DNA of 46,576 nt from a virus. Position 1 is the stretch's first letter. Every line of letters starts with the position of its first letter. Shown here piece by piece: positions 5,235 through 46,196 of the stretch. Under the pieces are notes generated by a model, which made no database searches, was not told the DNA's origin, and saw only the letters and a program-made list of their open reading frames with translations. The position numbers and the translations under genes were made by a program. Location of the stretch: IMG/VR virus record IMGVR_UViG_3300030329_001317, positions 1 to 46,576 of that record. The stretch is one strand, 5' to 3'.

Positions 5235-5255
5235 TAACCACACCCGTATACAGGG
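5235..5255 (+). promoter_or_regulatory. Candidate phage RNA polymerase promoter, copy 1
   Basis: A 21-bp stretch containing CACCCGTATACAGGG is repeated exactly at 11813-11833. It starts TAACC and ends in a GGG run like an initiation site, comparable in shape to T7-family promoters (TAAT...TATAGGGAGA). From memory, CACCCGTA also occurs in the reported cyanophage Syn5 promoter ATTGGGCACCCGTAA. It is placed to transcribe the thyX-talC block, just upstream of a terminator hairpin. Confidence 0.5.
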
Positions 5256-8127: not shown

Positions 8128-8186
8128 GATCCTTTCATGATAACATTCACAGTCAAATCGCTGTTGGTTGTTATCACGAAGGGTTC
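8128..8186 (+). promoter_or_regulatory. Long intergenic hairpin presenting the TTCACAGTCA motif
   Basis: The arms 8128-8145 and 8169-8186 form 16 pairs with two mismatches (T8130/T8184, A8137/C8177); the inner run TGATAAC/GTTATCA is perfect. The loop (8146-8168) contains TTCACAGTCA, the motif dispersed through the early and replication genes. It is the only intergenic copy, between genes at 7899 and 8228. Confidence 0.6.
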
Positions 8187-8227
8187 ATAATTGAACTTCT
8201 TCATTATCCACTTTATTTATTAATTCT

Positions 8228-8545
8228 ATGTTTTTAACAGTTTCACCACGCACAAGTACTGCAATTGAAGAGTTAAAAGTTGATGGTTTAAAATCATTAG
8301 CTATTGTAACATTTAAGAATGGGAATACTTATGCGTATGAAAATGTATCAAAGCGTGCAATTTTAAATGTATTGTTTAATCCTGATATCTCATTAGGTTT
8401 TTGGGTTAACAATAACCTTGTTCAATCTGATCGTGCTTCAGTTATACCAACTGAGGAGTATTACAATGTAATCAATGAGAAGCGTGAAAGATTAAACAAG
8501 TTAATTAAAAGAACTGAAGATGTAAATCTTCCAAAGTTTGCATAA
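8228..8545 (+). CDS. KTSC-like domain early protein, 105 aa
   Basis: The segment from about residue 12 to 70 (IEELKVDGLKSLAIVTFKNG, then YAYENVSKR, then ISLGFWVNN) follows the KTSC pattern of a short beta-rich domain with F-x-N/S-G-x-x-Y and a nearby S/G-x-F/W. KTSC proteins are common in phages and their role is unclear. A lysine/arginine-rich helix follows. A terminator-like hairpin lies just after the stop. Confidence 0.75.
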   Translation: MFLTVSPRTSTAIEELKVDGLKSLAIVTFKNGNTYAYENVSKRAILNVLFNPDISLGFWVNNNLVQSDRASVIPTEEYYNVINEKRERLNKLIKRTEDVNLPKFA

Positions 8546-8548
8546 GAT

Positions 8549-8575
8549 AAGGAGGGGATTTATTCCCCTTTCCTT
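8549..8575 (+). terminator. Terminator-like hairpin
   Basis: AGGGGA (8553-8558) pairs with TCCCCT (8564-8569), extended by AAGG/CCTT with a small internal loop, ending in TTT. It follows the 105-aa gene and could attenuate early transcription before the next gene cluster. Confidence 0.55.
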
Positions 8576-8580
8576 TCAAT

Positions 8581-8598
8581 TTATCCACCTTATCCACA
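8581..8598 (+). repeat. Tandem DnaA-box-like 9-mers
   Basis: TTATCCACC (8581-8589) is immediately followed by TTATCCACA (8590-8598), the latter a perfect match to the bacterial DnaA box. TTATCCACT occurs at 8204-8212 and TTATCCACA at 16148-16156. This may be a binding site or only a shared AT-rich leader element; T7-like replication does not need DnaA. Confidence 0.35.
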
Positions 8599-8606
8599 AC
8601 TAAACT

Positions 8607-8921
8607 ATGAACAATTCACTCGCATATGATGTTATTAAAGATCAATATGATCTTGATACATTAAAAGAAATAGTAGAACATGGGTGTGCATCTGGTGTTG
8701 CTACTAATCACATTTATTACTATCAAACTGTTAAATTTTATGATCAATATGAAGAAGAGATATATGAATATATTGAAGATTTATTAGGAACAGATTATTT
8801 AGTAGAAACATTTAAAAATAATAATGCACATTTAACAGGTTATAAGAACGATGTAGTATGGACATATGTTGAATTAGTTGCTGGTCAAATAGTTGATATT
8901 GAAGAATTGGAGGTAGCATGA
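8607..8921 (+). CDS. Unknown acidic early protein, 104 aa
   Basis: ATG 8607 after the tandem TTATCCAC repeats. The product is tyrosine-rich and acidic (HGCASGVATNHIYYYQTVKF near residues 26-45, then YEEEIYEYIEDLLG). Similar short proteins with an HGCxSGxxxHxxYY pattern occur in other phages as far as I recall, without a known role. It overlaps the next gene by four bases (ATGA). Confidence 0.75.
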   Translation: MNNSLAYDVIKDQYDLDTLKEIVEHGCASGVATNHIYYYQTVKFYDQYEEEIYEYIEDLLGTDYLVETFKNNNAHLTGYKNDVVWTYVELVAGQIVDIEELEVA

Positions 8922-9031
8922 ACAAAACAAAAGCACAATTACAAACAGAGTATGATAGATTAGATAGACAATTAGGAATTGCTGGATATATAATAGCAAT
9001 AGAATTAATCTGGTTAATTTCACCATTTTAA
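8918..9031 (+). CDS. Single-helix membrane peptide, 37 aa
   Basis: ATG 8918 overlaps the previous stop. A charged N-terminal helix (MNKTKAQLQTEYDRLDRQLG) is followed by one hydrophobic segment (IAGYIIAIELIWLISPF). Such tail-anchored-like peptides recur in this early cluster (also 9664 and 9924). Function unknown; membrane targeting early in infection is the inference. Confidence 0.55.
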   Translation: MNKTKAQLQTEYDRLDRQLGIAGYIIAIELIWLISPF

Positions 9032-9045
9032 GGAGGTTTTAAATT

Positions 9046-9279
9046 ATGCAATTAACAAGTAAGTATGGATCGGTTGTTATTGATTACTATCCAATTAAAT
9101 CCTGGGTTGATAATAACATCAGATCAAATAAAAAATTGAAAGTATTAAGTTTCAAAGGAGATGTTATGAGGAAAATGATAATTAGTATAACTCAAATGAA
9201 TACTGAAATAGAAGAAAGAGTAAAAGATTATGATTATATAATAACAAATGCAGAGTTAGGATTACCGCAATATGTCTGA
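9046..9279 (+). CDS. Small early protein with strong ribosome site, 77 aa
   Basis: AAGGAGG at 9030-9036, nine bases before ATG 9046, is a perfect Shine-Dalgarno. The product (starting MQLTSKYGSVVIDYYPIKSW) is mixed alpha/beta in character with no domain I recognise. Confidence 0.7.
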   Translation: MQLTSKYGSVVIDYYPIKSWVDNNIRSNKKLKVLSFKGDVMRKMIISITQMNTEIEERVKDYDYIITNAELGLPQYV

Positions 9280-9397
9280 TCATATTGTAACAACTGAAGA
9301 CATACAATGTATGTTAAAATGTGGTTGGACTATGGAACAAATCAAGCAAATGTATAGTGATTGTATTATTGAAGATATGGAGGAATTAAATGATTAA
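9272..9397 (+). CDS. Small acidic protein, 41 aa
   Basis: ATG 9272 overlaps the previous gene by 8 bases; TAA ends at 9397. It contains three cysteines (IQCMLKCGWTMEQIKQMY) and an acidic end (DMEELND). GGAGG at 9379-9383 inside it serves the next gene. Function unknown. Confidence 0.5.
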   Translation: MSDHIVTTEDIQCMLKCGWTMEQIKQMYSDCIIEDMEELND

Positions 9398-9521
9398 ATA
9401 TTCACAGTCAGTCGATGTTATTAATACAAATAAATTACAAACCTTATATAATATAATAACTAAGAAGAGTTATACATATAAACCTATACGTAACCATTCA
9501 AACTTCCACTCATTTGGTTAA
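9390..9521 (+). CDS. Small basic protein, 43 aa
   Basis: ATG 9390 lies inside the end of the previous gene, 7 bases after the GGAGG ribosome site at 9379-9383. It begins MIKYSQSVDVINTNK; the YSQS codons carry one copy of the dispersed TCACAGTC motif. The C-terminal half is basic and aromatic. Function unknown. Confidence 0.5.
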   Translation: MIKYSQSVDVINTNKLQTLYNIITKKSYTYKPIRNHSNFHSFG

Positions 9522-9523
9522 CT

Positions 9524-9679
9524 ATGAGACACGCTTATTTCCTACTCAAAACTGAACTTGATGAACAAACATATATTGAAGATGTTGTCAAGTATGTCGA
9601 AGAAGATGTTGAAATGATATGTGTAGATTATATGATGATTAATGATGATGATCAATTACATCCATGGATATCTACATAA
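9524..9679 (+). CDS. Small acidic protein, 51 aa
   Basis: ATG 9524 to TAA 9677-9679, starting two bases after the preceding stop. The product is strongly acidic (LDEQTYIEDVVKYVEEDVE, then NDDDQ). No domain is recognised. Confidence 0.5.
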   Translation: MRHAYFLLKTELDEQTYIEDVVKYVEEDVEMICVDYMMINDDDQLHPWIST

Positions 9680-9750
9680 TTACATTAGCAGTTATTCTTA
9701 TTGTTATTATAATGTTAATAGCAACATTCTTTGAAGATTATGAGTATTAA
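9664..9750 (+). CDS. Single-helix membrane peptide, 28 aa
   Basis: ATG 9664 overlaps the previous gene by 16 bases. The product is one hydrophobic helix (IYIITLAVILIVIIMLIATF) with an acidic end FEDYEY. With 8918 and 9924 it makes a set of tiny early membrane peptides. It is short enough to be spurious. Confidence 0.4.
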   Translation: MDIYIITLAVILIVIIMLIATFFEDYEY

Positions 9751-9753
9751 ATT

Positions 9754-9927
9754 ATGAATGAATCTAATTCTTATGTATTCACAGTCAAAATCCGTTCTTC
9801 AATGAACATTAATGATATCATATGGGTTATAACAAACAAACTCAAACATACATTACGCATTGAAAGTATAGATTATAAAGTAGTAGATAAAAGAGATACA
9901 ACTATTGAACATCATGGAGGAGAATGA
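9754..9927 (+). CDS. Small protein, 57 aa
   Basis: ATG 9754, three bases after the preceding stop. The product (MNESNSYVFTVKIRSSMN at the start) has a beta-alpha character and a charged end (HHGGE). The codons for FTVK carry a copy of the TTCACAGTCA motif in a different frame from the copy at 9400. Function unknown. Confidence 0.5.
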   Translation: MNESNSYVFTVKIRSSMNINDIIWVITNKLKHTLRIESIDYKVVDKRDTTIEHHGGE

Positions 9928-10082
9928 TATATATTATAATACCATTATTATTACTTGAAGAGTTTATTAAAAGGATATTAATAGGTATATATAAAGTATA
10001 TATTTCTATAGATAATTGGAACTTTAACAGAACACTTGATCAAAGAAACCAACAACTTTATGACAGAGATAGCAGATCCTGA
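9924..10082 (+). CDS. Membrane-associated small protein, 52 aa
   Basis: ATG 9924 overlaps the previous stop (ATGA), with GGAGGAG just ahead (9916-9922). The N-terminal half is hydrophobic (MIYIIIPLLLLEEFIKRILI), the C-terminal half is charged (DQRNQQLYDRDSRS). A membrane-anchored peptide with a cytoplasmic tail is plausible. Function unknown. Confidence 0.5.
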   Translation: MIYIIIPLLLLEEFIKRILIGIYKVYISIDNWNFNRTLDQRNQQLYDRDSRS

Positions 10083-10230
10083 ATCAAGATTTATCAGTGC
10101 AATGATTCAAGTAGATAATATCAAAGCATTATTAAATGCTAAGGTATTACATCAAACAGTTATTACAAGTACTGGTGAACCTAATTATAAAAGAATTACT
10201 ATAGAATATAAACCTTATGATAACACCTAA
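10060..10230 (+). CDS. Small early protein, 56 aa
   Basis: ATG 10060 (MTEIADPESRFISAMIQ) is preferred over an upstream TTG at 10036. It overlaps the previous gene by 23 bases. The fold looks alpha then beta-hairpin (ITSTGEPNYKRITIEYKPY). No known domain. Confidence 0.55.
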   Translation: MTEIADPESRFISAMIQVDNIKALLNAKVLHQTVITSTGEPNYKRITIEYKPYDNT

Positions 10231-10336
10231 TTGGAAACATCATTCAAATAAACCACAAAAACGGACACTAAAACCCAATGCTATTAGACAATCTAAAGCA
10301 CAACTTAAAGCACTGATTAATAAATTACAACGTTAA
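10217..10336 (+). CDS. Small basic protein, 39 aa
   Basis: ATG 10217 overlaps the previous gene by 14 bases; TAA ends at 10336. Very basic (WKHHSNKPQKRTLKPNA, then SKAQLKALINKLQR), so nucleic-acid binding is possible. Function unknown. Confidence 0.45.
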   Translation: MITPNWKHHSNKPQKRTLKPNAIRQSKAQLKALINKLQR

Positions 10337-10356
10337 TCAGTGTTTATTTCATGTCA

Positions 10357-10427
10357 ATTCACAGTCAGAGCGTAGCTCATGGACGTGGAGCAAAGAACAT
10401 TCACAGTCACTCACTCACTCATGGACG
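10357..10427 (+). repeat. Imperfect 42-bp tandem unit carrying two motif copies
   Basis: Two units start at 10357 and 10399. Each has ATTCACAGTCA, then 8 variable bases (GAGCGTAG / CTCACTCA), then CTCATGGACG. A third CTCATGGACG lies at 10526-10535. The first CTCATGGACG contains the start of the 62-aa gene at 10379. Both blocks keep identical spacing while the spacers differ completely, which is more than a simple recent duplication would show. Confidence 0.6.
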
Positions 10428-10567
10428 CTAAGTATTATGTCACCTTAGAAAGTGGTCGATCATTTGTATTAAATAGTGATCCAGACTGGTACACTGCTAG
10501 TTATGATGCTCTTGAAGAAGCAGCACTCATGGACGATTATCTTATTAACATCGAACCAATCACATGA
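10379..10567 (+). CDS. Small early protein, 62 aa
   Basis: ATG 10379 to TGA 10565-10567. Begins MDVEQRTFTVTHSLMDAKYY and continues as a compact acidic protein. The FTVTHS codons carry a motif copy. It overlaps the next gene as ATGA. Function unknown. Confidence 0.65.
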   Translation: MDVEQRTFTVTHSLMDAKYYVTLESGRSFVLNSDPDWYTASYDALEEAALMDDYLINIEPIT

Positions 10568-10890
10568 AGAAACCTAAATACTTCCCTAATAAATGGGAAT
10601 TATTAAGTAAAGCACCATCTAAACATTTCCAATCAATACCTTTTGAAGAGTTTATGGATTGGAAAATTAAAGGATATGTTATACCACATGATGTCTCATG
10701 TATTATACGTGAACGTAACAAATATAGTGGTAAAATAAAAGAATATGTATATAAAACAGATTTAGCAGCTAAGAAGAGAGTCGGTAGAATGTTAGATGAA
10801 GGTATGAGTGAAGTAACTATATGTGATAACACTACTATACAAGTACTACACACTGAGGATTTTATCGATGACTTGCAAGACGACTTTTGA
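10564..10890 (+). CDS. Unknown early protein, 108 aa
   Basis: ATG 10564 overlaps the preceding stop. A basic N-terminal half (MKKPKYFPNKWELLSKAPSK) is followed by an acidic C-terminal half ending DFIDDLQDDF. It sits two genes ahead of the phage RNA polymerase. No known domain. The antisense 128-aa frame here is a shadow. Confidence 0.75.
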   Translation: MKKPKYFPNKWELLSKAPSKHFQSIPFEEFMDWKIKGYVIPHDVSCIIRERNKYSGKIKEYVYKTDLAAKKRVGRMLDEGMSEVTICDNTTIQVLHTEDFIDDLQDDF

Positions 10891-11026
10891 AAACATTTAC
10901 ACGTATGAGAAACAAGCTCTTGATTCCATACCAAAAGATCATCCAAATTATGAAGAAATTAAAGAACTATTAATGGAACAAATTAAAGATGATTTAGAAA
11001 CAAATGCCCACACCATCACAAATTGA
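10868..11026 (+). CDS. Small acidic protein before RNA polymerase, 52 aa
   Basis: ATG 10868 (MTCKTTFENIYTYEKQALD) is preferred over the upstream start at 10823. Helical and acidic. It overlaps the previous gene by 23 bases and the RNA polymerase start by 23 bases, so the three are translationally linked. Function unknown. Confidence 0.6.
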   Translation: MTCKTTFENIYTYEKQALDSIPKDHPNYEEIKELLMEQIKDDLETNAHTITN

Positions 11027-13340
11027 GGAACAAGTTAAACTTGAAAGAACTCAAATTGCTCAAGGACTCCAACGATTACACAAGAACACTAAACAACTAG
11101 AGGGAAGAAGTTATGGTTCAGCTACTATTTATGGTATATCTTCTATTGATACTTTACTTCCATTAGTAGTAGAACGTATCGAGAAGACTACTAATAGATT
11201 ACATAAAGGACAAGCAGGTAAATCATTTAAAGAAATACATCAATACCTAGCTGACCTTGAACCATTAGCTGCTGCTGCAATAGCATGTAAGTTAACCTTT
11301 GATAAAGTATTTAGTATTAAAGAAGGTAGTAATCAATTAGTCACAGTCAGTGAATCAATTGGCCAAGCTATAGAAGATGAATGTCAAATGAGACATTTTG
11401 AATCTAAAGCACCTGGTTTATTACATACAATAAAAGAAAACTATTGGCATAAGTCATGTGGTACTCATCAAAAGATTGTAGTTGTACAAACTCTCATGAA
11501 CAGGTACGGTATTCAACACTGGTCACCATGGGGTAGATCAAATAGAATTAAGCTTGGTACTTGGTTATTAGATTGTATCATGAGTACAAGTGGATGGTTC
11601 TATAAAGATATGCGTAGAGTAGGTAGGAAAACTACTAACTACATAGTACCTACACCTGAATTCATAGCTATCAAAGATCAAGTTATGAATGATGCTGAAC
11701 TATTTGCTCCATTAGCATGGCCGATGCTCATCGAACCTAATGACTGGGGTGAAAAGCCAGGTGGTTACTTGCTTAATGAGGTCATGAAAGGTCATGAAAT
11801 GGTTAGACGTGGTAACCACACCCGTATACAGGGAGATAAACCTATCGCTTTCTTGAATAAGATTCAGAAGGTAGGGTACAAGCTCAACCCATTTGTTGTA
11901 AACGTAGCTGAACAGCTCGATGAAAGGGGTATAAGTGTAGGAAAGTTTATACCTATAGTTGAGTTACCTCTCCCTCCTAAACCTGTAGATATAGCAGATA
12001 ACAAAGATGCTCGTAAGGCGTATCGTAGAGCTGCTGCAGAGGTCATGAACACTAATGCTGGTGCATTCAGACGTTCATGTAGAACAAGGATGACTATGGA
12101 GGCTGTTAGAAGGTTTAAAGGTAAAGAGTTCTTTATTCCGTGGTCTTTTGATTACAGAGGTAGAGCATACCCTATACCTGCATTTCTAACTCCACAAGAT
12201 ACTGACTTTGGTAAATCACTCTTAGTCTTCTCTAATGAAGAAGTAATGGGTGATGATGCTGAAAAATGGTTAGCGTTTCAAGTAGCTACAACTTATGGTT
12301 TAGATAAAGAGACTTGGGATGTTAGACAAAGTTGGGTTAAAGCTAACGAATGTTTAATAACTAGAGTAGCTAAATTTCCTATTGAGTCTTTAGCTGAATG
12401 GGAAGTAGCAGATGAGCCGTGGCAATTTTTAGCGGCGTGTGAGGAGTACCATGCGGTGGTAACTAAACAGTTAAGACGACACACACGACTACCAGTTGCC
12501 ACGGACGCTACATGTAGTGGCCTTCAGATCCTTGCTGGATTAGCAAGAGACCGCAAGACAGCACAACTCGTCAATGTGTTGCCTTCTGATAAACCACAAG
12601 ACGCATATAAGGTAGTAGCTGATACTGCTAAACCTCATATACCTGAATACTTGCATAATGTATGGAATAGATCCAAGGTCAAGAGAACCGTGATGACTAT
12701 TCCATACAATGCAAAACCATTCTCTAATCGTTCCTACATCAGGGACGCATTGAAAGAAGATGGTATAGAGATAGAGAAGGATGACTTAACACTCACAGTC
12801 AAAGCTGTTAGAGATGCTATGAATGAGATAGTTCCTGGCCCTATGGCTGTTATGTCATGGATAGAAAAGGAAGTATCTAAACAATTTAAAGATAACCCTA
12901 ACTTAATTTTAACATGGACTACACCTTCTGGATTTGTTGTCAACCAAAGGATTCAGAAGAAGAAAGTTGAAAAATTAGAGTTACAATTATTAGGTCGTTG
13001 TATACTAAGTGTAGCTACAGATGATCCTAATACTGCTGATAAGCTAAGACACAAGGCTGCTACTGCACCTAATCTTATTCACAGTCTGGATGCGACACTG
13101 TTACATTTCAGTGCGTTAAAGTTCTGTGGACCTATTGCACTAATTCATGATAGTGTATTATGTAGAGCTACAGACATGACTGCTCTATCTAGTATAGTAA
13201 GGGAGACCTACATGGAACTCTTTGCTAAACGAGATTACCTTACTGAGTTTGCTTCAGCTATTGGAGCAACTACCAAACCACCTATCATCGGAGATCTAGA
13301 ACCCTCCGAAGTGATTGACTCCACTTATTTTTTCTGTTAA
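11004..13340 (+). CDS. T7-type single-subunit RNA polymerase
   Basis: 778 residues (T7 gp1 is 883). The palm and fingers signatures are present: catalytic D501 in DATCSGLQ (motif A), the motif B lysine/tyrosine segment VKRTVMTIPYNAKPF near 561 (YN instead of the T7 YG), and IHDSV near 715 (motif C). PNLIHSLDATLLH just before is also typical. The C-terminus ends YFFC. It should transcribe middle and late genes from phage promoters. It overlaps the upstream small gene by 23 bases and the downstream one by one (TAATG). The gene contains three copies of the TCACAGTC motif and one T7-promoter-like repeat. Confidence 0.97.
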   Translation: MPTPSQIEEQVKLERTQIAQGLQRLHKNTKQLEGRSYGSATIYGISSIDTLLPLVVERIEKTTNRLHKGQAGKSFKEIHQYLADLEPLAAAAIACKLTFDKVFSIKEGSNQLVTVSESIGQAIEDECQMRHFESKAPGLLHTIKENYWHKSCGTHQKIVVVQTLMNRYGIQHWSPWGRSNRIKLGTWLLDCIMSTSGWFYKDMRRVGRKTTNYIVPTPEFIAIKDQVMNDAELFAPLAWPMLIEPNDWGEKPGGYLLNEVMKGHEMVRRGNHTRIQGDKPIAFLNKIQKVGYKLNPFVVNVAEQLDERGISVGKFIPIVELPLPPKPVDIADNKDARKAYRRAAAEVMNTNAGAFRRSCRTRMTMEAVRRFKGKEFFIPWSFDYRGRAYPIPAFLTPQDTDFGKSLLVFSNEEVMGDDAEKWLAFQVATTYGLDKETWDVRQSWVKANECLITRVAKFPIESLAEWEVADEPWQFLAACEEYHAVVTKQLRRHTRLPVATDATCSGLQILAGLARDRKTAQLVNVLPSDKPQDAYKVVADTAKPHIPEYLHNVWNRSKVKRTVMTIPYNAKPFSNRSYIRDALKEDGIEIEKDDLTLTVKAVRDAMNEIVPGPMAVMSWIEKEVSKQFKDNPNLILTWTTPSGFVVNQRIQKKKVEKLELQLLGRCILSVATDDPNTADKLRHKAATAPNLIHSLDATLLHFSALKFCGPIALIHDSVLCRATDMTALSSIVRETYMELFAKRDYLTEFASAIGATTKPPIIGDLEPSEVIDSTYFFC
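11813..11833 (+). promoter_or_regulatory. Candidate phage RNA polymerase promoter, copy 2
   Basis: Exact second copy of the 21-bp sequence at 5235. Here it starts TAACC, contains CACCCGTATACAGGG and continues AGATAAA, so the 3' part reads GTATACAGGGAGA, very like the T7 core TATAGGGAGA. It lies inside the RNA polymerase gene, where it codes NHTRIQG, and would direct transcription into the replication genes. Confidence 0.5.
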
Positions 13341-13543
13341 TGTACACACACTCATTATTCGATTCCTTCTTTGCTCCAACTAGAGTTATTGTTGTCTCTG
13401 AAGAGAGGCTTAAACAAGCTGAGTTAGAAGCAAAAGAGAATCAACTCAAGGTCATTGATAACCGTATTGAAGAGTTGTCTAAGTATAGACTAGAAGTTCA
13501 AGACGAAATCAAAGCATTACAACCATCTGAGGCCACTAAGTAA
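13340..13543 (+). CDS. Coiled-coil small protein, 67 aa
   Basis: ATG 13340 shares a base with the RNA polymerase stop. Residues from about 20 to 60 form a charged heptad-like helix (SEERLKQAELEAKENQLK onward), a likely coiled coil. It sits between RNA polymerase and SSB. It could be a small regulator or an oligomerising partner; function unknown. Confidence 0.75.
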   Translation: MYTHSLFDSFFAPTRVIVVSEERLKQAELEAKENQLKVIDNRIEELSKYRLEVQDEIKALQPSEATK

Positions 13544-14112
13544 TGACACGAACAATCCACACCACTGACAAACCTGTAACACTTGAGGGATTCCAAGCTA
13601 TACTAGCTCCTAGTAAGTTTGGGTATTCACTTTCGGCTATAGTAGATCAATCTACCATTGATAAATTAGAAGAAGAAAGAGCTTCTGTACTTAAATGGGC
13701 AGAATCTAAACTTAAGAATCCTAAGCGTTCAACACTTAAACCAGAACCATGGGAAGAAGTATCAGATGGTAAATATAAATTAAAGTTCTCTTGGAATGAA
13801 GAGAAAAGACCACCTGTAGTAGATACTGAAGGAGTACCAGTAACAGATGTTAAAACACCATTATACTCAGGGTCTACAGTTAAGCTTGGGTTTTATCAGA
13901 AACCTTATATCCTTAGAGATGGAGTTACCTATGGTAGTTCTCTTAAGCTTGTTGGTGTACAAGTTGTCTCAGTAAAAGGAGAAGCTGGTGTAGATACTGG
14001 AGATTTAGATGTAAATGAAGTAGCTGAGTTATTTGGAACTACATCTGGTTTTAAAACAGGTGATCCTAATGTAACACCAACTGCTACAAAAGAAGATGAA
14101 GAAGACTTCTAA
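13543..14112 (+). CDS. Single-stranded DNA-binding protein (gp2.5-like)
   Basis: 189 residues in the position and size of T7 gp2.5 (232 residues). The middle is beta-rich, consistent with an OB fold (YKLKFSWNEEKRPPVV, LYSGSTVKLGFYQKPY). It ends in an acidic tail with terminal phenylalanine (TATKEDEEDF), the hallmark by which gp2.5 contacts the DNA polymerase and helicase. It coats single strands during replication and recombination. Start and stop overlap the neighbours (TAATG before; 17 bases after). Confidence 0.9.
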   Translation: MTRTIHTTDKPVTLEGFQAILAPSKFGYSLSAIVDQSTIDKLEEERASVLKWAESKLKNPKRSTLKPEPWEEVSDGKYKLKFSWNEEKRPPVVDTEGVPVTDVKTPLYSGSTVKLGFYQKPYILRDGVTYGSSLKLVGVQVVSVKGEAGVDTGDLDVNEVAELFGTTSGFKTGDPNVTPTATKEDEEDF

Positions 14113-14461
14113 ATATAGATCAGGATTAGAAGAGCAGGTTGCAAAACTGCTTGATGGTCTTGGAGTTACTTATGAATATGAATCTACAAGAGTTCCTTAT
14201 ACTATACAACATCACTACAGCCCTGATTTTATTCTCCCTAATCACGTATTACTTGAAACTAAAGGGTATTGGGATGCAACCGATCGTCGTAAGATCAAAG
14301 CAGTCAAGAAGGACAACCCAGAATTAGATTTAAGGATGGTGTTCCAAAGTCCATTTAATAAAATCAGTAAGAAAAGTAAAACTACGTATGCTAAATGGTG
14401 TGAAAAACATGACATACCATGGACATCGTGGCAAGATATACCACTCGAATGGTTAATCTAA
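14096..14461 (+). CDS. Endonuclease I / Holliday junction resolvase (gp3-like)
   Basis: 121 residues, close to T7 gp3 (149). Conserved features: YRSGLEEQVAKLL at the start, the PDF..E.KG nuclease core (SPDFILPNHVLLETKGYWD near residue 43), and DLRMVFQSPFNK. It cleaves branched DNA and helps degrade host DNA. It overlaps SSB by 17 bases and touches the next start at 14461. Confidence 0.95.
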   Translation: MKKTSKYRSGLEEQVAKLLDGLGVTYEYESTRVPYTIQHHYSPDFILPNHVLLETKGYWDATDRRKIKAVKKDNPELDLRMVFQSPFNKISKKSKTTYAKWCEKHDIPWTSWQDIPLEWLI

Positions 14462-14640
14462 TGAGAACATTCTGGAATATAAACCCAACACATTACATCA
14501 ATGGTTATGCTGTTATTCCTGGGGAAGAAGAACCAGGGTTTAATGGAGAATGGATAGAGGGTGAATTTATCCCTATATATGATGAATTGATGTGGATTGA
14601 TAAAGAACGTAAAAGATATTTTGCTACTCGCAATGGCTGA
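14461..14640 (+). CDS. Small protein between gp3 and gp4, 59 aa
   Basis: ATG 14461 overlaps the endonuclease stop (TAATG); an earlier frame start at 14419 lies within gp3 and is less likely. The product is acidic and aromatic (EEEPGFNGEWIEGEFIPIYD). Its stop overlaps the primase-helicase start at 14633. In T7 this slot holds the gp3.5 lysozyme, but this protein is far too short to be one. Function unknown. Confidence 0.7.
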   Translation: MRTFWNINPTHYINGYAVIPGEEEPGFNGEWIEGEFIPIYDELMWIDKERKRYFATRNG

Positions 14641-16213
14641 TTTAACAAGTGATTTTGTAAGACATATACCCTGCTCAGAATGTGGATCATCAGATGCTAA
14701 TTCTGTGTATTCTGATGGTCACACATACTGTTTTGTATGTCATACTAGAAAAGCAGGGAATAATGATGTTATTCACAGTCAAAGAATGTCTAAAGATGTA
14801 AAACTTACAGGTTCAGCCGAACGGCTGCAAAAACGTAATATATCTGAGAAGACTAATAAATTTTATAGAATATTTCGTGATGGTAACACCTTAAGATTTC
14901 CTTATTATACTAATGATGGTGTCTTAAAAGGTGTTAAGATCAAGAACAAACAAAAAGATTTTCGATATGAAGGAATTTCCACTGATACTTTATTCGGCCA
15001 GCATCTCTTCCCTACTACTGGTAAACGTGTTGTTATTACTGAAGGTGAATTAGATGCTGCTAGCTGTTATGAAGCTATGGGAGGTTGGCCTATGGTATCA
15101 TTACCACATGGAGCCGCTTCTGCAAAGAAAGATGTACAAAAGCAAATACCTTTCTTTCAAGGGTATGATGAGATTGTATTATTCTTTGATAATGATGAGC
15201 CAGGACGTAAAGCAGCGGATGAAGTAGCTACAGTATTACCACCAGGTAAAGTAAAGATTGCAAGACTGGAATCTTATAAGGATGCATCAGACGCATTACA
15301 AGCTAATGATGCAGAAGCAATTAGAAAAGCTATATGGAATGCTAGCCCTTATAGACCTGATGGTATTATTGATGGGAAATCTTTATTAGAATTAGTAACC
15401 ACACCAACTAAACCTTTTGAACATGATTACCCATTTGAAGGATTGCAAAATAAATTGTACGGTGTCCGATACGGAGAGCTTACGACGATTACTGCAGGAT
15501 CTGGTCAGGGAAAATCCACATTCTGTAGGCAGCTTGCAACTCACTTTCTTCAGCAGGGGGTACGGACAGGCTACCTGGCACTTGAAGAGTCAAATAGACG
15601 AACCGCACTCGGATTAATGTCCACTGTAGTAGGTAAATCATTACACATTGGAGAACATGACCAAACAGAACTTGAAGAACATTTTCGTAATACCATTGCT
15701 AATTGGAATCTTTACCTTTTTGATGGCTTTGGTTCTTTTGATCCCGATATCATTTACAACAGGATCGAATATCTTGCCAGTGGATTGGAGTGTCGTATTG
15801 TATTCCTCGATCACTTAAGTATATTATTATCTGGTTTAGATGGTGATGAGAGACGTATGATAGATACCACTATGACAAAGTTAAGATCATTAGTAGAACG
15901 AACAGGTATTGCATTATTTTTAGTTAGCCATTTAAGACGTACACAACAAGACAAGAATCATGAAGAAGGAGCAAGAGTTACACTCGGACAACTCCGAGGA
16001 AGTGCTGCAATATCTCAACTTAGCGATTCGGTTATTGCACTCGAAAGAAATCAACAGGGTAATAGTGAACGAAGTGCTACGACTCTTAGAGTCCTTAAAA
16101 ATAGATATTCTGGCGAGACAGGGGTAGCTTGTCAATTAGATTATGATTTATCCACATGCAGATTTACTGAAAATGAAATTACGCCCAAATTCAACCCGTC
16201 CACGGATTTTTGA
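14633..16213 (+). CDS. DNA primase-helicase (gp4-like)
   Basis: 526 residues from ATG 14633 (MADLTSDFVRHIPC). An N-terminal zinc finger (CSEC and CFVC pairs, residues about 14-40) is followed by a TOPRIM primase core (ITEGELDAAS; FFDNDEPGRKAA). The RecA-like helicase has Walker A GSGQGKS near 290 and Walker B IVFLDHLSIL, then an arginine-bearing SHLRR. It primes lagging-strand synthesis and unwinds the fork. The codons for VIHSQR carry a TCACAGTC motif copy. The upstream start at 14597 would only add residues read through the previous gene. Confidence 0.95.
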   Translation: MADLTSDFVRHIPCSECGSSDANSVYSDGHTYCFVCHTRKAGNNDVIHSQRMSKDVKLTGSAERLQKRNISEKTNKFYRIFRDGNTLRFPYYTNDGVLKGVKIKNKQKDFRYEGISTDTLFGQHLFPTTGKRVVITEGELDAASCYEAMGGWPMVSLPHGAASAKKDVQKQIPFFQGYDEIVLFFDNDEPGRKAADEVATVLPPGKVKIARLESYKDASDALQANDAEAIRKAIWNASPYRPDGIIDGKSLLELVTTPTKPFEHDYPFEGLQNKLYGVRYGELTTITAGSGQGKSTFCRQLATHFLQQGVRTGYLALEESNRRTALGLMSTVVGKSLHIGEHDQTELEEHFRNTIANWNLYLFDGFGSFDPDIIYNRIEYLASGLECRIVFLDHLSILLSGLDGDERRMIDTTMTKLRSLVERTGIALFLVSHLRRTQQDKNHEEGARVTLGQLRGSAAISQLSDSVIALERNQQGNSERSATTLRVLKNRYSGETGVACQLDYDLSTCRFTENEITPKFNPSTDF

Positions 16214-16382
16214 AGGTAGTGAATATGAACATCCATGGTATAAATATGAGGTAACACATTTATTAAATAAACCCAACCCACCTAGTAAAGAAGCAATTGA
16301 AAAAGCCAAGTTCGTCGATAAAACATACCACTGGAGTGGGTCCAATAATCTTCGATCTGGAAACCAACGGACTACTAAATAA
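16173..16382 (+). CDS. Small protein between primase-helicase and polymerase, 69 aa
   Basis: ATG 16173 (MKLRPNSTRPRIFEG) gives a protein that covers the gap between helicase and DNA polymerase, overlapping each. The body contains YEHPWYKYEVTHLLNKP. It is probably real because the 84-nt gap would otherwise be non-coding in a very compact genome. No known domain. Confidence 0.5.
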   Translation: MKLRPNSTRPRIFEGSEYEHPWYKYEVTHLLNKPNPPSKEAIEKAKFVDKTYHWSGSNNLRSGNQRTTK

Positions 16383-16890
16383 TGCCACAAGATTACATTG
16401 TCTATCACTATACTGGGAAAAAGATCAAAGACAAGAAACCTTTAACGATGAAAGCTATGCTGAACCCGATAAAAGCTTACCAATGGGTTCGAACTACTCT
16501 ATCATTGATGGTATTCACTGGCTCGAAACGGCTGAAGTTCTTATTGGCCACAACATCATCGGTTTTGATTTACCTGTTATTCAAAAGCTTTACCCTTGGT
16601 TTCGCACTGATGCTCTTATTATTGATACCCTTATTCTATCTCGCTTATATCATCCGAATCTTTTCGACATAGATCAGAAACATATATGGCCTCACATGCC
16701 ATTACAATTATATGGAAGACATTCTTTAGAGGCTTATGGTTATAGGTTAGGAGAATATAAAGGTAACTTTGGTAAGACAACAGATTGGAAGGAGTGGTCA
16801 CAAGAAATGGAAGATTATTGTATACAAGATGTTACGGTCACTCACAAATTATGGAAGCATTTCCACAAATACCTGAATGGGTCAAATTAG
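16297..16890 (+). CDS. DNA polymerase, 3'-5' exonuclease domain (split gp5, N-terminal part)
   Basis: Up to 197 residues with the proofreading motifs of T7 DNA polymerase: Exo I IIFDLETNG, Exo II HNIIGFDLPVI, a central DTLILSRLYHPNL and Exo III YCIQDVTVTHKLW. The start is uncertain: TTG 16297, or GTG 16336, which would give MGPIIFDLE and match the T7 N-terminus better. The frame stops at TAG 16888-16890 just after the exonuclease, while the polymerase domain continues in the -1 frame from 16851. Either the polymerase is truly made as two chains or an indel separates them. Confidence 0.85.
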   Translation: MKKPSSSIKHTTGVGPIIFDLETNGLLNNATRLHCLSLYWEKDQRQETFNDESYAEPDKSLPMGSNYSIIDGIHWLETAEVLIGHNIIGFDLPVIQKLYPWFRTDALIIDTLILSRLYHPNLFDIDQKHIWPHMPLQLYGRHSLEAYGYRLGEYKGNFGKTTDWKEWSQEMEDYCIQDVTVTHKLWKHFHKYLNGSN

Positions 16891-18122
16891 AACATCAGGT
16901 AGCAACATTATTAACACAACAAGAACTCCATGGATGGTATTTTAATGAAAGCTCTGCACGGCAACTTGAATCAACTCTCAGACGAGAGTATGAAGAAACT
17001 TGTCAATTACTACGCAACAGGTATCCTTACGTTGAAGGACCACTATTCACTCCTAAGCGAGATAATAGGACCAGAGGCTTGGTCGCAGGTGCTCCGAGTA
17101 CCAGGTTAAAAGATTTTAATCCCAGCTCAAGGGATCATATATCATGGATATTACAAACACACTACAACTGGACACCGAGCTTACTAACTGCTTCAGGGAA
17201 GGCGGTTATAGACGAGACCGTATTGAAAGATATTGGAACGGATATTGCTCTCCAATTTCTGACACTACTGGATCTGACCAAAAAGCTTGGGATGATATCA
17301 GAAGGCGTGAACGCATGGCAGAAGCTTGTTACGACATCTAGCAGAATCCATCATCATTGTTCTACTGCAACCCAGACATTTAGGTGTGCACATCGTTCAC
17401 CAAACTTAGCTCAAGTACCATCAGATGAAAGATTCAGGAAATTATTTACAGCGAGTCCAGGTTATGTATTGGTTGGTGCCGATCTTAGCGGTATTGAGTT
17501 ACGGATGCTCTCGCATTACCTCGCCAGATACGATGGCGGACGCTATAAAGAAATACTGCTCAACGGAGATATACACCAAACAAATGCAGATAAGATCGGA
17601 CTTACTAGACGGCAAATTAAAACCGTCACTTATGCCTTCCTCTACGGGGCTGGGGATATCAAGATAGGATATACTTATGACAAACAATTCACGGAAGATA
17701 AGGCGAGGAAGAAAGGTAGAGAAATTCGTAAAGCTTATATCGATGCCATACCAGGTCTTAAAGAACTTCTGGAGGCGGTACACAAGGCTAGTGAGAGGGG
17801 ATATGTATGCGGATTGGATCACCGTCGCATCTTGTGTGACTCGCGGCACAAGTCCCTTAACTATTTATTACAAGGATCCGCAGCGATCATCGCAAAACGA
17901 TGGATGGTTTTAACACATGAAGCTATACAAAAGATGTCTTTAAAATGTCATCAACTAGCTTTTGTTCATGATGAATTACAATTTGAATCGCAACCAGAAC
18001 ATGTAAATGATTTAAAATCTTTATTAGAATTAACAGCTCAAGAAGCTGGTGAATATTATAAAGTACGTATTCCTATTGCTGCTGAATCTAAATCAGGTGC
18101 TACATGGGCAGATGTACATTAA
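16851..18122 (+). CDS. DNA polymerase, polymerase domain (split gp5, C-terminal part)
   Basis: About 423 residues from ATG 16851 (MEAFPQIPEWVKLEHQ); TTG 16785 is an earlier possibility. Family A signatures: FRCAHRSPNLAQVPS, motif A VGADLSGIELRML, O-helix KTVTYAFLYGAGD with tyrosine at the position of E. coli F762, and motif C FVHDELQ. The tyrosine is the T7-like form associated with fast, less ddNTP-discriminating enzymes. It overlaps the exonuclease ORF by 40 bases; I see no ribosome site of good strength and no canonical slippery heptamer in the overlap. Confidence 0.9.
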   Translation: MEAFPQIPEWVKLEHQVATLLTQQELHGWYFNESSARQLESTLRREYEETCQLLRNRYPYVEGPLFTPKRDNRTRGLVAGAPSTRLKDFNPSSRDHISWILQTHYNWTPSLLTASGKAVIDETVLKDIGTDIALQFLTLLDLTKKLGMISEGVNAWQKLVTTSSRIHHHCSTATQTFRCAHRSPNLAQVPSDERFRKLFTASPGYVLVGADLSGIELRMLSHYLARYDGGRYKEILLNGDIHQTNADKIGLTRRQIKTVTYAFLYGAGDIKIGYTYDKQFTEDKARKKGREIRKAYIDAIPGLKELLEAVHKASERGYVCGLDHRRILCDSRHKSLNYLLQGSAAIIAKRWMVLTHEAIQKMSLKCHQLAFVHDELQFESQPEHVNDLKSLLELTAQEAGEYYKVRIPIAAESKSGATWADVH

Positions 18123-18128
18123 CAATAT

Positions 18129-18905
18129 ATGAAATTATTAATTGATGCAGATTACATCGTCTACAAATCGTGTGCGGCGGCAGAAACTGAAATTGATTGG
18201 GGTGATGACACTATTCTTGTCACTAGCCAGTTTAGCGACGCATACGCTGCCACAAGTAGAGAACTTACCAGAATTAAAAACAAATTTGGGTCATTCTCTA
18301 CTTTAATACTATTCTTTTCAGATAGTATAAACTTTAGAAAGAAAATTTTACCTGATTATAAAGGTCATAGAAACCGTAAGAAACCTTGTGGATATAAGCG
18401 TGTTATCAATGCATTAAAAGAAGAGTATAAGGTTATTATTAAACCTACTCTTGAAGCTGATGATGCAATGGGTATATATGCTACTAAATATCCTGGTAAT
18501 ATGATCGTCTCACCTGATAAAGATATGAGACAAATACCAGGTAAGTTATATAACTTCGAAGATACATTCACAGTCAGTTCTGAGGAAGGTGCTAAATGGC
18601 ATTTAATCCAAACATGTGCTGGTGATTCTACTGATGGCTATGGTGGTATACCTGGTATTGGTGTGAAACGTGCTGAATTATTATTTGAAGAACATGGTTA
18701 TTCTTGGAAAACCGTGGTTAAAGCATTTAAAGATAAAGACTTATCTGAAGATATTGCTTTAATTAATGCTAGACTTGCTCGTATACTAACCGTAACCGAT
18801 TATGACTTCGCAACAAAAAAACCAAAACTCTGGACTCCCAGCTCCGATTACGAAGTTAACAATGGAGCAAGATCTAAAGTTAAGGTTAATAAAGGATCAC
18901 CTTAA
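18129..18905 (+). CDS. 5'-3' exonuclease (gp6-like, FEN family)
   Basis: 258 residues. FEN/RNase H-like motifs: LLIDADYIVY at the start, DYKGHRNRKKP, LEADDAMG, IVSPDKDMRQIPG, and a helix-hairpin-helix with metal ligands CAGDSTDGYGGIPGIGVKRA. It degrades host DNA and removes RNA primers in the T7 system. FTVSS near residue 147 is encoded by a TTCACAGTCA motif copy. Confidence 0.95.
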   Translation: MKLLIDADYIVYKSCAAAETEIDWGDDTILVTSQFSDAYAATSRELTRIKNKFGSFSTLILFFSDSINFRKKILPDYKGHRNRKKPCGYKRVINALKEEYKVIIKPTLEADDAMGIYATKYPGNMIVSPDKDMRQIPGKLYNFEDTFTVSSEEGAKWHLIQTCAGDSTDGYGGIPGIGVKRAELLFEEHGYSWKTVVKAFKDKDLSEDIALINARLARILTVTDYDFATKKPKLWTPSSDYEVNNGARSKVKVNKGSP

Positions 18906-19083
18906 AACAATTAATTTAGAAAGGCATAAAGAAGATATAGTAACTTTTTTCTTAGCTTTACAAACTCAAAACTTTGTATTAGCTAATTCCATAACCAACT
19001 TAATTAACAAATGGCCCAAGGACCAACGTACTACAAACGAGGTAGCTCAGATGTTTGGGATTTTATTAGAGACCAAGGATTAA
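18862..19083 (+). CDS. Small protein, 73 aa
   Basis: ATG 18862 (MEQDLKLRLIKDHLKTINL) is preferred over the 18802 start. It overlaps the exonuclease by 44 bases and the next gene by 73. Helical, with no recognisable domain; its coverage of the gap between the exonuclease and the DUF3310 gene supports it. Confidence 0.5.
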   Translation: MEQDLKLRLIKDHLKTINLERHKEDIVTFFLALQTQNFVLANSITNLINKWPKDQRTTNEVAQMFGILLETKD

Positions 19084-19283
19084 GTTTTCACCTAGGTAAT
19101 GTAGTAAAATATGTGTGTAGAGCAGGATTTAAAGATGATGATATTGAAGATTTAAACAAAGCCATCCACTATTTACAAAATGAAGTCGAATACAGAACAA
19201 GCCAAAGAGTTCAGGAAGGCGTACAACGTCAAGAACTCACCAGCCCGTACCTCACGTATGATGCAGCGGAATTTGATCGTTGA
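19011..19283 (+). CDS. DUF3310 protein, 90 aa
   Basis: Residues about 13-60 contain DVWDFIRDQGLSFHLGNVVKY, then CRAGFKDDDIEDLNKAIHYL, the pattern of phage DUF3310 proteins (nucleotide kinase-like in some annotations). Function unproven; it is commonly found among phage nucleotide-metabolism genes, as here next to the MazG-like protein and RNR. It overlaps the MazG-like gene by 104 bases in another frame. Confidence 0.8.
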   Translation: MAQGPTYYKRGSSDVWDFIRDQGLSFHLGNVVKYVCRAGFKDDDIEDLNKAIHYLQNEVEYRTSQRVQEGVQRQELTSPYLTYDAAEFDR

Positions 19284-19554
19284 AGAATTTAAAGAATTTC
19301 TTGAGGTAGAAGGTTTACTGTATAGAGAATCACCAAAAGTTAGAGAAGAAACATTAAAAGAACTAGCTGATTTAGTATATGTCTGCTATCAATATGCAGA
19401 GAATCTTGAATGGGATTTAGATGAAGCTTTAAACAGAGTTCATCAAAGTAATATGTCAAAACTTGATGACAAGGGTCACCCAATACATAGAGATGATGGT
19501 AAAGTATTAAAGGGACCAAATTATCAACCACCAAATTTAACAGATTTAATTTAA
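19180..19554 (+). CDS. MazG-like NTP pyrophosphohydrolase
   Basis: 124 residues of the all-alpha NTP pyrophosphatase type: EEFKEFLE near residue 35 and KELADLVYVCYQYA near 67 provide the ExxE...ExxD metal-binding pattern, and NRVHQSNMSKLDD is typical of the family. It hydrolyses nucleoside triphosphates and may clean the dNTP pool or lower (p)ppGpp-like signals during infection. Start ATG 19180; it is followed closely by RNR. Confidence 0.85.
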   Translation: MKSNTEQAKEFRKAYNVKNSPARTSRMMQRNLIVEEFKEFLEVEGLLYRESPKVREETLKELADLVYVCYQYAENLEWDLDEALNRVHQSNMSKLDDKGHPIHRDDGKVLKGPNYQPPNLTDLI

Positions 19555-19555
19555 A

Positions 19556-20932
19556 ATGACCGCAGAACTTATCTCCCGCACTGGTCGGGTCCAGTCATGG
19601 CTGGATAACCCAGAATCAAGACTTCCAGTGAGCTGTACTGTATTTGTCGTTGAGGACTCCATGGAGGGTCCTGAGGGCATTGAGGCTAGCTGGAGATTTG
19701 CGTCACACGCATTGAGAAATGGGGCAGGTTGTGCTATACACCTGTCTAAACTTAGACCAAAAGGTCACGAGAATGGAAAAGGTTTAACAGCTAGTGGTCC
19801 AGTCTCATTTGCTAAAATATACTCTACTTTAAATGAAACAATAAGAAGAGGTGGAGTATACAAGAACGGTGCAATAGTGGCTCATATTGATATAACTCAC
19901 CCTGATGTTATTGATTTTATTACCACTCCAAGATCTGAATTACCATGGATTAAAAGATGTGTTAATCTTGATGCAAATACTTGGTCAAAAGCAGATAACC
20001 TTACAAAAGACGCATTAATTTATGGTATTAAATCAGGGGATATATGGTTAAACAAAATACGTTATGACGAAAATGGAAAACGCATCTACGGAAACGTATG
20101 CTTGGAGGTATACTTGCCGTCACGAGGAACTTGCCTCTTACAACATGTTAATTTGTCTGCCTGTCAAATCAGTGATATCAAAGAAGCTTGCACTACAGGT
20201 ATGTCCGAGTTGTGCGAGTTACATAGCAGAACAGGCGTTGGCGATAGTGGAGAATACCTCTCGTCAGAAATCGATAGACAAGTCGGATTAGGTTTTCTTG
20301 GTTTAGCTAATTTTCTTAGAAGAAATGGTTTAACTTATAGAGAATTCGGCGACGCATTGGAGAATGTAAACAATGACCGACATGACGACTCACTCGCTGC
20401 TACCCTTGCTTATGGACTTAAAGCTGGTATCAATGCTGCCGCTACAGTGGCTCGTAGTTATGATATGGTTCGAGCCTTTGCTATCGCTCCAACTGCCAGC
20501 TGCAGTTATAGAAGCAAGGATTTGGATGGCTTTACGAGTACCCCAGAAATAGCACCACCTATTTCAACTTCTGTTGATAGAGATAGTGGTACATTTGGTG
20601 TTCAAAGTTATGATTATGGAGCAGTTGAAATTGCTAGTGAAGTAGGTTGGGATGCTTATAAACAAGTAGCAGATCAATTTATGATTATGTTAGAAAAAAC
20701 GGGACTTCTTCACGGCTATTCATTTAATAGCTGGAGTGATGTAGTTACATATGACAGAAACTTCGTGGAAGAGTGGTTGCTTTCTCCTCAGACCTCCCTA
20801 TATTATAGTTTGCAAGTAATGAGTGATACTCAAGATAAGACTGATGTATATGCAGCATTAGAAACAACTGAAGTTGAAGATTATTTGCAAGATATTTTAA
20901 AAGAACCTATAACTTGTGATTGTCAAGAATAA
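19556..20932 (+). CDS. nrdA: Ribonucleotide reductase large subunit (NrdA-like)
   Basis: 458 residues, short because the N-terminal ATP-cone is missing. Active-site features: C27 in LPVSC, NVCLE with C182 and E184 (thiyl and glutamate), NLSAC downstream, a tyrosine pair in SLYYSLQ, and the C-terminal CDC redox cysteines. The YY pair and the overlapping small subunit place it in class I, in line with published reannotation of the P-SSP7-type enzyme from class II (recalled, not checked). It reduces ribonucleotides to deoxyribonucleotides. The stop overlaps nrdB (TAATG). Confidence 0.88.
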   Translation: MTAELISRTGRVQSWLDNPESRLPVSCTVFVVEDSMEGPEGIEASWRFASHALRNGAGCAIHLSKLRPKGHENGKGLTASGPVSFAKIYSTLNETIRRGGVYKNGAIVAHIDITHPDVIDFITTPRSELPWIKRCVNLDANTWSKADNLTKDALIYGIKSGDIWLNKIRYDENGKRIYGNVCLEVYLPSRGTCLLQHVNLSACQISDIKEACTTGMSELCELHSRTGVGDSGEYLSSEIDRQVGLGFLGLANFLRRNGLTYREFGDALENVNNDRHDDSLAATLAYGLKAGINAAATVARSYDMVRAFAIAPTASCSYRSKDLDGFTSTPEIAPPISTSVDRDSGTFGVQSYDYGAVEIASEVGWDAYKQVADQFMIMLEKTGLLHGYSFNSWSDVVTYDRNFVEEWLLSPQTSLYYSLQVMSDTQDKTDVYAALETTEVEDYLQDILKEPITCDCQE

Positions 20933-21654
20933 TGAGAAAACATCCTTACGATAAATTATTTGAAAGAAAACGAACATGGACACCTGTCCAACCAACAAAA
21001 GGGGAGGTAAAATACGGTGCAGAAGAGACCATCAAACGTGCTCTCGCAATACGTCATATGGAGCTGCCAGTTGGAGAATTCATTTCTGAAGGTCTTGAGA
21101 AAGATGTTCCCAATAACGCTAGGAAGCTGCTCCAGTCGAATGTCAAAGATGAGGAAAAGCATGACTTGGCTTTAGGGTATATAGTCGATGCCCATGGAGC
21201 TGATTCACAGTCAGAATTAGAAGCAATGAGGTTAAGAGATGCCTGGATTGAACACCCTGATCATACTATTACCAAAGCTCTCGTTGCAGAACGAGCTGTA
21301 TTTTTTGTTTTACTTCCTTTCTTTAGGTTTAATGGTGATCCTGCTCTCAGAACAGTATCAGCTGATATCTCCAGAGATGAACAAATCCACGTTGCTACTA
21401 ATAGCCTTGTTTGTAGGGAGTTGGGTTTATCCCATTCTCCTTCTTTGGATAAACTTAGGAAAGCCACTATTAACTGGATCTTCCAACCTTTAGGTATAAA
21501 TACTACCGATAAATATTTGGACAAAAATTTTTGGCAGGATTCAAGTGATCGTTTAATGTATGAAGGAAAAGCACCTGAATTTTCTGAGACACGTAGAGCA
21601 CGAATGCCCGCCTTTTTTGAACATGCAAACACCAATCTCCCTCAATACGCTTAA
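20932..21654 (+). CDS. nrdB: Ribonucleotide reductase small subunit (NrdB-like)
   Basis: 240 residues from ATG 20932 (MRKHPYDKLFERK). Ferritin-like metal ligands are E44 (RHMELPVGE), E74 and H77 (DEEKH), E120 (VAERAVF), and E150 and H153 (DEQIHV). The radical tyrosine of class Ia, seven residues after the first E of ExxH, is leucine here (L81); Y83 is near but out of register. The enzyme therefore probably stores its oxidising equivalent on the metal centre, as proposed for some Mn-dependent subclasses. DSQSEL near residue 91 is encoded by the last TTCACAGTCA motif. Confidence 0.85.
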   Translation: MRKHPYDKLFERKRTWTPVQPTKGEVKYGAEETIKRALAIRHMELPVGEFISEGLEKDVPNNARKLLQSNVKDEEKHDLALGYIVDAHGADSQSELEAMRLRDAWIEHPDHTITKALVAERAVFFVLLPFFRFNGDPALRTVSADISRDEQIHVATNSLVCRELGLSHSPSLDKLRKATINWIFQPLGINTTDKYLDKNFWQDSSDRLMYEGKAPEFSETRRARMPAFFEHANTNLPQYA

Positions 21655-25848: not shown

Positions 25849-25857
25849 ACATCACGT

Positions 25858-25920
25858 CCGTTCATCCATACTTCATGGACGCATGAAACCTAGGCATGGA
25901 ACGGGGTCTAGGTACTGGAG
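25858..25920 (+). promoter_or_regulatory. Glutamine-riboswitch-like leader (downstream-peptide motif)
   Basis: P1 pairs CCGTTC (25858-25863) with GAACGG (25899-25904); P2 pairs TCCAT (25865-25869) with ATGGA (25875-25879). The order CGTTCATCC...GGACGC...GGAACG is the arrangement of the glnA/downstream-peptide RNA family, which binds glutamine and is known from cyanobacteria and cyanophages. An alternative helix ACCTAG (25888-25893) / CTAGGT (25908-25913) overlaps the P1 region and ends 3 bases before the ribosome site GGAG (25917-25920), so ligand binding could switch translation of the 33-aa peptide. Confidence 0.7.
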
Positions 25921-45822: not shown

Positions 45823-46196
45823 TGAAGAAACTTCTTCTTATATTATTGCTACTTACACCAGTAGCTAAAGCTAATACTATCACACCACAATTCACCCAAG
45901 GTAGTATGAACTCAACAACGACTACCACCCAAGTTATAAATGAAACAATTACAACTGAAGTCGTCGGAGGTGCATTAACATCATGGTCAGGTTCAAATGT
46001 ACAGATAGATACAGACAGCGAAGGAATAGCTGGTGGTATCGAAGTAACAGATCAAGTATTCGAAATAGTGGATACATCCTTACCATGGACACTAGAAGTA
46101 GTAACAAGAGCTGCAGGAGTGGTCGAGACGATCACAGAAGTCAGAGACATAACTACAAATGCTACTACTACCTCCTTGTCTGTCTTCTCACAATAG
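45822..46196 (+). CDS. Secreted protein, 124 aa
   Basis: Signal peptide MKKLLLILLLLTPVAKA then NTITPQFTQGSMNSTTTTTQ. The mature part is Thr/Val-rich and beta-like (NVQIDTDSEGIAGGIEVTD). Its 3' end is repeated at 2-151. From general knowledge it is commonly paired with the next secreted gene in marine cyanophages. Role unknown; envelope or virion location is inferred from the signal peptide. Confidence 0.75.
   Translation: MKKLLLILLLLTPVAKANTITPQFTQGSMNSTTTTTQVINETITTEVVGGALTSWSGSNVQIDTDSEGIAGGIEVTDQVFEIVDTSLPWTLEVVTRAAGVVETITEVRDITTNATTTSLSVFSQ

Follow-up and report, generated by a model that had tools for sequence, protein, structure and literature searches.

We describe a short, strand-specific DNA motif in the early and replication region of cyanopodovirus genomes, which points to a widespread, previously undescribed DNA-nicking system. 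By analogy with Pseudomonas phage tf, the copies of the motif are predicted to be programmed nick sites of a phage-encoded strand-specific nicking activity, a reading that we consider to have about an even chance of being correct. That T5 DNA carries programmed nicks in one strand has been known since the 1960s; maps of such nicks exist for only a few phages, and they have no known use. If the nick reading is true, such nicks would be a constant trait of some of the most abundant phages in the sea, and a dozen sister specificities would constitute a natural experiment for finding the enzyme; the cultured phages Syn5, NATL1A-7, S-CBP1, S-CBP42 and P60 make the reading directly testable. Should it be wrong, there is still a reader to be found for a one-strand signal that occurs throughout the family, drifts fast and belongs to the early and replication genes.

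The motif was characterized in the 46,576-nt genome of a virus of marine cyanobacteria (IMG/VR record IMGVR_UViG_3300030329_001317), the whole of which is referred to below as the window. Its core, TCACAGTC, is the top strand-specific word of this genome. A search of both strands of the window finds eleven copies on the plus strand between positions 8145 and 21214, with 0 on the minus strand, 0 elsewhere and hence 0 in the late genes, exactly as the initial annotation had reported. No looser motif signal was found in the late genes either, the late 25 kb being without such sites. All genes of the window are also on the plus strand, and the copies are therefore asymmetric sites oriented with transcription. 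The extended form ATTCACAGTCA is exact in eight of the eleven copies and has one mismatch in the other three:

8145..8155, plus strand: copy 1, ATTCACAGTCA, before the ORF at 8228
9400..9410, plus strand: copy 2, ATTCACAGTCA, at the start of a small ORF
9777..9787, plus strand: copy 3, ATTCACAGTCA, at codon 8 of a 57-aa ORF, where V/I tracks the variant in relatives
10357..10367, plus strand: copy 4, ATTCACAGTCA, upstream of the ORF at 10421
10399..10409, plus strand: copy 5, ATTCACAGTCA, 11 nt upstream of the ATG at 10421
11339..11349, plus strand: copy 6, AGTCACAGTCA, in the RNA polymerase gene (+337)
12791..12801, plus strand: copy 7, ACTCACAGTCA, in the RNA polymerase gene (+1789), a slot common to several variants
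13077..13087, plus strand: copy 8, ATTCACAGTCT, in the RNA polymerase gene (+2075)
14771..14781, plus strand: copy 9, ATTCACAGTCA, in the primase linker directly behind the zinc domain and before an in-frame ATG, kept in most relatives
18566..18576, plus strand: copy 10, ATTCACAGTCA, in the exonuclease gene
21203..21213, plus strand: copy 11, ATTCACAGTCA, in the second ribonucleotide reductase gene, the last copy before the late genes

Dinucleotide shuffles give 1.5 expected copies of TCACAGTC on both strands, and 11 copies were reached in 0 of 100 shuffles. Under an order-2 Markov model, 0.14 copies are expected in the early and replication region (P ~6e-18), which is of the same order as the chance figure of about 0.2 estimated beforehand. 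The shuffled-codon null that had been suggested was run with both the protein and the codon usage kept, and over 500 trials it averages 0.32 genic copies and never exceeds 2, compared to 6 observed in the early and replication genes.

The comparison was extended to 80 IMG/VR contigs around related RNA polymerase genes. Wherever TCACAGTC is present among them it occurs on the plus strand only, and the contigs without it carry a sister word on one strand, namely CACAATCG, CACAATCA, CACAATAAC, CACACTCA or others. For three variants, counted in 67 contigs (574 kb), there are 334 exact copies on the plus strand versus 0 on the minus strand, with few one-mismatch forms. A second strand-specific word, CAAGGACG, is found 175 to 0 by strand in the 80 contigs and resembles a stereotyped ribosome-binding stretch before early genes; in the window, CATGGAC is distributed 11 to 1.

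Among 16 complete cyanopodovirus genomes, the window included, 13–14 show a motif of the same type that reaches significance in the early and replication region, and copies outside that region nearly always number none or one per genome. The expectation that relatives would have an enriched octamer in the same region is thereby borne out. The variants and copy numbers are as follows:

NATL1A-7: CACAATCG, 9 copies
S-RIP1: CACATTCA, 9 copies
Syn5: CACCATCA, 14 copies, with 7 elsewhere
P60: CACCATCAT, 7 copies
S-CBP2: CACCATCAC, 7 copies
SS120-1: CACTAAGCC, 6 copies
S-CBP42: CACGAGAG, 11 copies
P-SSP7: CACACTCAT, 5 copies
S-TIP37: motif weak
S-RIP2: 3 copies
S-SBP1: 1 copy, though it has the same replication genes

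Pelagiphage HTVC019P may have a motif as well (CAACAATCA, 5 copies), and the same search detected no such motif in pelagiphage HTVC011P. We found no description of the motif in the open literature that was searched.

Each genome has its own variant at nearly every copy (CACAGTCA, CACAATCG, CACAATAAC, CACACTCA, CACCATCAC and others), and homologous slots hold the variant of the genome in which they lie. This concerted drift, which the initial annotation did not foresee, implies that the motif is read by something in trans whose specificity drifts. The signal resides in the nucleic acid rather than in the protein, as had been proposed from the use of different reading frames: one RNA polymerase slot changes synonymously, with GATTCACAGTCAGC in AGTC phages and GATTCACAATCAGC in AATCA phages (CAG/CAA), and in other slots the protein follows the motif, giving PFTVRVAE or PFTITVAE in a small ORF and IHSQ, IHNN or IHNR in the primase linker. 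The best-kept slot is this linker behind the primase zinc domain, where the motif mostly stands directly before an in-frame ATG or GTG; the T7 gene 4B product starts near the equivalent place. Of 72 sites counted in eight annotated genomes, half fall between genes (control 23%), and for 25% a start follows within 45 nt (control 7%). A start-codon rule was rejected, as the sites favour starts yet also sit inside genes.

The nick reading is motivated by phage tf, the best match found. Its 14 mapped nicks all lie on one strand, at 5'-TACT/RTGMC-3', and the left half of the genome holds 11 of them (PMC3517423). Relatives of tf mainly have TACTATGAC, shifted by one base, at similar positions, putative nick sites have been listed in LUZ24, PaP3 and phiMR299-2, and the tf authors proposed co-evolution of the nickase and its sites (PMC3517423). 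Our de novo word method, applied to tf, returns the nick motif TACTGTGAC as the top word (11 to 0 by strand). Three of the tf nicks (2103, 5268, 20795) fall exactly before an annotated start codon, which is made by the ATG or GTG of the site itself.

Judged by sequence, the cyanophage motif resembles the tf site in anatomy and partly in letters. Reverse-complemented, it reads TGACT/GTGAAT, with ACTGTGA in common with the tf site, and in the AATAAC clade it reads TTATT/GTGAA; across the variants a variable stretch is followed by a constant GTG, and the tf nick falls at that border. The match in letters is modest: the window variant and the AATAAC clade match TACT/RTGMC at 7 of 9 positions and the other variants at 4–6, the distant variants of S-CBP42 and P60 at only 4. 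By our own estimate the 7-nt overlap has a chance of ~0.0007 per comparison, or perhaps a few per cent once the numbers of variants and site families are considered, and the argument consequently leans more on anatomy than on letters. In anatomy, both have about ten exact sites of 9 nt, all on a single strand and most closely spaced in the early half; the cyanophage motif is confined to the early and replication region and the tf nicks lie mostly in the left half. The combination of similar positions with a shifted site sequence, seen among tf relatives, recurs in cyanophages at homologous slots. Furthermore, tf and all 16 genomes have in common a T7-type replication module, consisting of primase-helicase, DNA polymerase with an exonuclease part, 5'-3' exonuclease and endonuclease I; no match to a T7-like RNA polymerase was found in tf. 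The two systems differ in that nicks are proven in tf and predicted from sequence in cyanophages, in the strand that carries the site as written (the coding one of the early genes in tf, the non-coding one in cyanophages), and in the many more site variants among cyanophages. One-strand nick sites also occur in T7-like phages related to phiKMV, but their consensus, CGACxxxxxCCTA/CTCCGG, is longer and unlike the cyanophage motif, and its 3 exact copies in phiKMV (6314, 13986 and 24128, plus strand) coincide with the three annotated putative phage promoters, inside which they lie. The nicked phiKMV strand is called non-coding in the literature, though the consensus sits on the plus strand.

From this likeness we infer that nicks exist, on one particular strand, and that a phage enzyme cuts them. 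A phage-encoded strand-specific nicking activity would recognise the motif copies, so that one strand of the early and replication region would carry programmed single-chain interruptions, as tf DNA does and, in kind, the DNA of T5 and phiKMV-like phages. If tf is a guide, the break would be on the strand complementary to the genes, at TGACT/GTGAAT. As the specificity of the enzyme drifts, the sites would all shift together by single bases, and the encoded amino acids would give way to them. Nicks of phikF77 are repaired early in infection and are back late, and the T5 nicking genes map to its late region (PMC3517423), so that the cyanophage nicks may also arise late and be found in packaged DNA. 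Candidates for the enzyme are endonuclease I, some other phage endonuclease and the primase, the last acting with unsealed Okazaki junctions; those located in the window are:

14096..14461, plus strand: candidate enzyme of the endonuclease I family (PHROG match), a family also present in the nicked phage tf
14633..16213, plus strand: candidate T7-type primase-helicase, also present in tf

No residue clearly covarying with the variants was found in RNA polymerase, SSB, endonuclease I, primase, DNA polymerase, exonuclease or the small ORFs. Trees of the RNA polymerase fit the variants best, but the motif copies themselves cluster near that gene. Further facts stand against the nick reading: the top word of T7 is its promoter only, although endonuclease I and primase are both present in that phage, and S-SBP1 has just its single copy. 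A guide RNA was rejected as well, a complementary copy of the motif having been sought in the window and none found.

The list of roles drawn up in the initial annotation did not include nick sites. The roles it did name (promoter or regulator, RNA, primase) were examined and none fits best, while RNA and primase are retained as rivals. An unlikely alternative is a mark at the RNA level, in which early and middle mRNAs would carry the motif for recognition by a phage endoribonuclease or RNA-binding protein, which would let these mRNAs be switched off or protected apart from the late mRNAs of the same phage promoter. The restriction to the sense strand of early and replication genes, the G-poor character of most variants and the frequent location near starts are consistent with such a mark, as is the absence of a phage promoter repeat between the replication and late genes in nearly all genomes, and all-or-none sites would suit a ribonuclease too. 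However, there is no consistent selection on RNA accessibility, and no RNase or RNA-binding family was found in the early ORFs.

The primase enters in two ways. The template of T7-type primases is GTC, which is present in the window variant (CAGTC), and NTC is kept in most variants. The lagging-strand templates of tf (GTCACAGTA) and of the window (TTCACAGTCA) would both give a primer starting with ACUG, and in tf the nick position is one base before a four-nucleotide primer would end, as though its final ribonucleotide had remained. We regard it as rather unlikely that the T7-type replisome common to both accounts for the tf-type nicks and the cyanophage motif alike, with Okazaki junctions at strong primase starts staying unsealed; if so, the old one-strand nicks would be explained without a dedicated nickase. 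The rival proper, that the copies are preferred starts of a T7-type primase on the lagging-strand template and that any interruptions are unsealed Okazaki junctions, draws on the same primer start and on the replication module common with tf, but appears improbable. Sites of a T7-type primase would be expected to be short, loose and spread over the whole lagging-strand template, whereas this one is an all-or-none site of 8–9 nt and is missing from the late 25 kb; moreover, the primase zinc domains do not track the variants, and the AATAAC, SS120-1 and S-CBP42 variants are without NTC.

It is quite improbable that the copies are stoperator-like operators, that is, oriented sites at which a bound phage protein would halt or slow down the transcription of early and middle genes. 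The stoperators of cluster A mycobacteriophages are likewise asymmetric, numerous and oriented with transcription, with a specificity that drifts between phages (PMC9283540). Those stoperators, however, are 13 nt long, lie in promoters and short gaps between genes throughout the genome of a temperate phage, and are read by an immunity repressor (PMC9283540), whereas many of the present copies are inside genes, the sites are sharper than usual operators, and no repressor or helix-turn-helix family was found in the early ORFs searched (many early ORFs are of unknown family).

The phage RNA polymerase promoter is a separate element. In 16 of 16 genomes there is a two-copy element, with one copy directly behind the terminase gene and the other within the RNA polymerase gene, ~0.8 kb into it; in the window the predicted pair is:

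5235..5255: predicted phage RNA polymerase promoter, TAACCACACCCGTATACAGGG
11813..11833: predicted phage RNA polymerase promoter, TAACCACACCCGTATACAGGG

The pair has its own upstream part in each genome and mostly ends near TATACAGGGAGA, with a third copy in S-CBP2. In Syn5 it equals the experimentally known promoter ATTGGGCACCCGTAA, from which the dispersed Syn5 word CACCATCA differs (PMC3950665). Since the upstream part of the pair differs widely among phages that have CACAGTCA in common, we rejected the identity of the dispersed motif with that promoter. That the copies are weak promoters for the same polymerase is very improbable for the same reasons, even though their distribution and single strand resemble T7 class II promoters, a CAC core is found in T7 and Syn5 promoters as well, and the motif is close to the starts of small genes; the Syn5 polymerase gene holds motif copies, yet it has been described with a single promoter (PMC3950665).

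Reading by the host is unlikely because phages of one host differ in motif (S-CBP42 versus S-SBP1 and S-RIP2 on WH7803; Syn5 versus S-TIP37, with its weak motif, on WH8109), and we also rejected a host sigma70 promoter with a fixed -10, no -10 element being found, and the MarR regulator of P-SSP7, which has no reported matching motif and is not universal.

Some features of the window itself may be added. Its ends (1–531 and 46046–46576) repeat each other over ~530 nt with several mismatches, which indicates a circularly permuted, nearly complete genome. An HNH protein is encoded at 1499–1828. The DNA polymerase is split into an exonuclease-part ORF (16297–16890) and a polymerase-part ORF (16785–18122) in different frames, and split ORFs are also annotated in P-SSP7, S-TIP37 and S-SBP1. 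A Glutamine-II riboswitch (25856–25913, plus strand; Rfam, 56.6 bits, E 4e-11) lies between the replication and head gene blocks.
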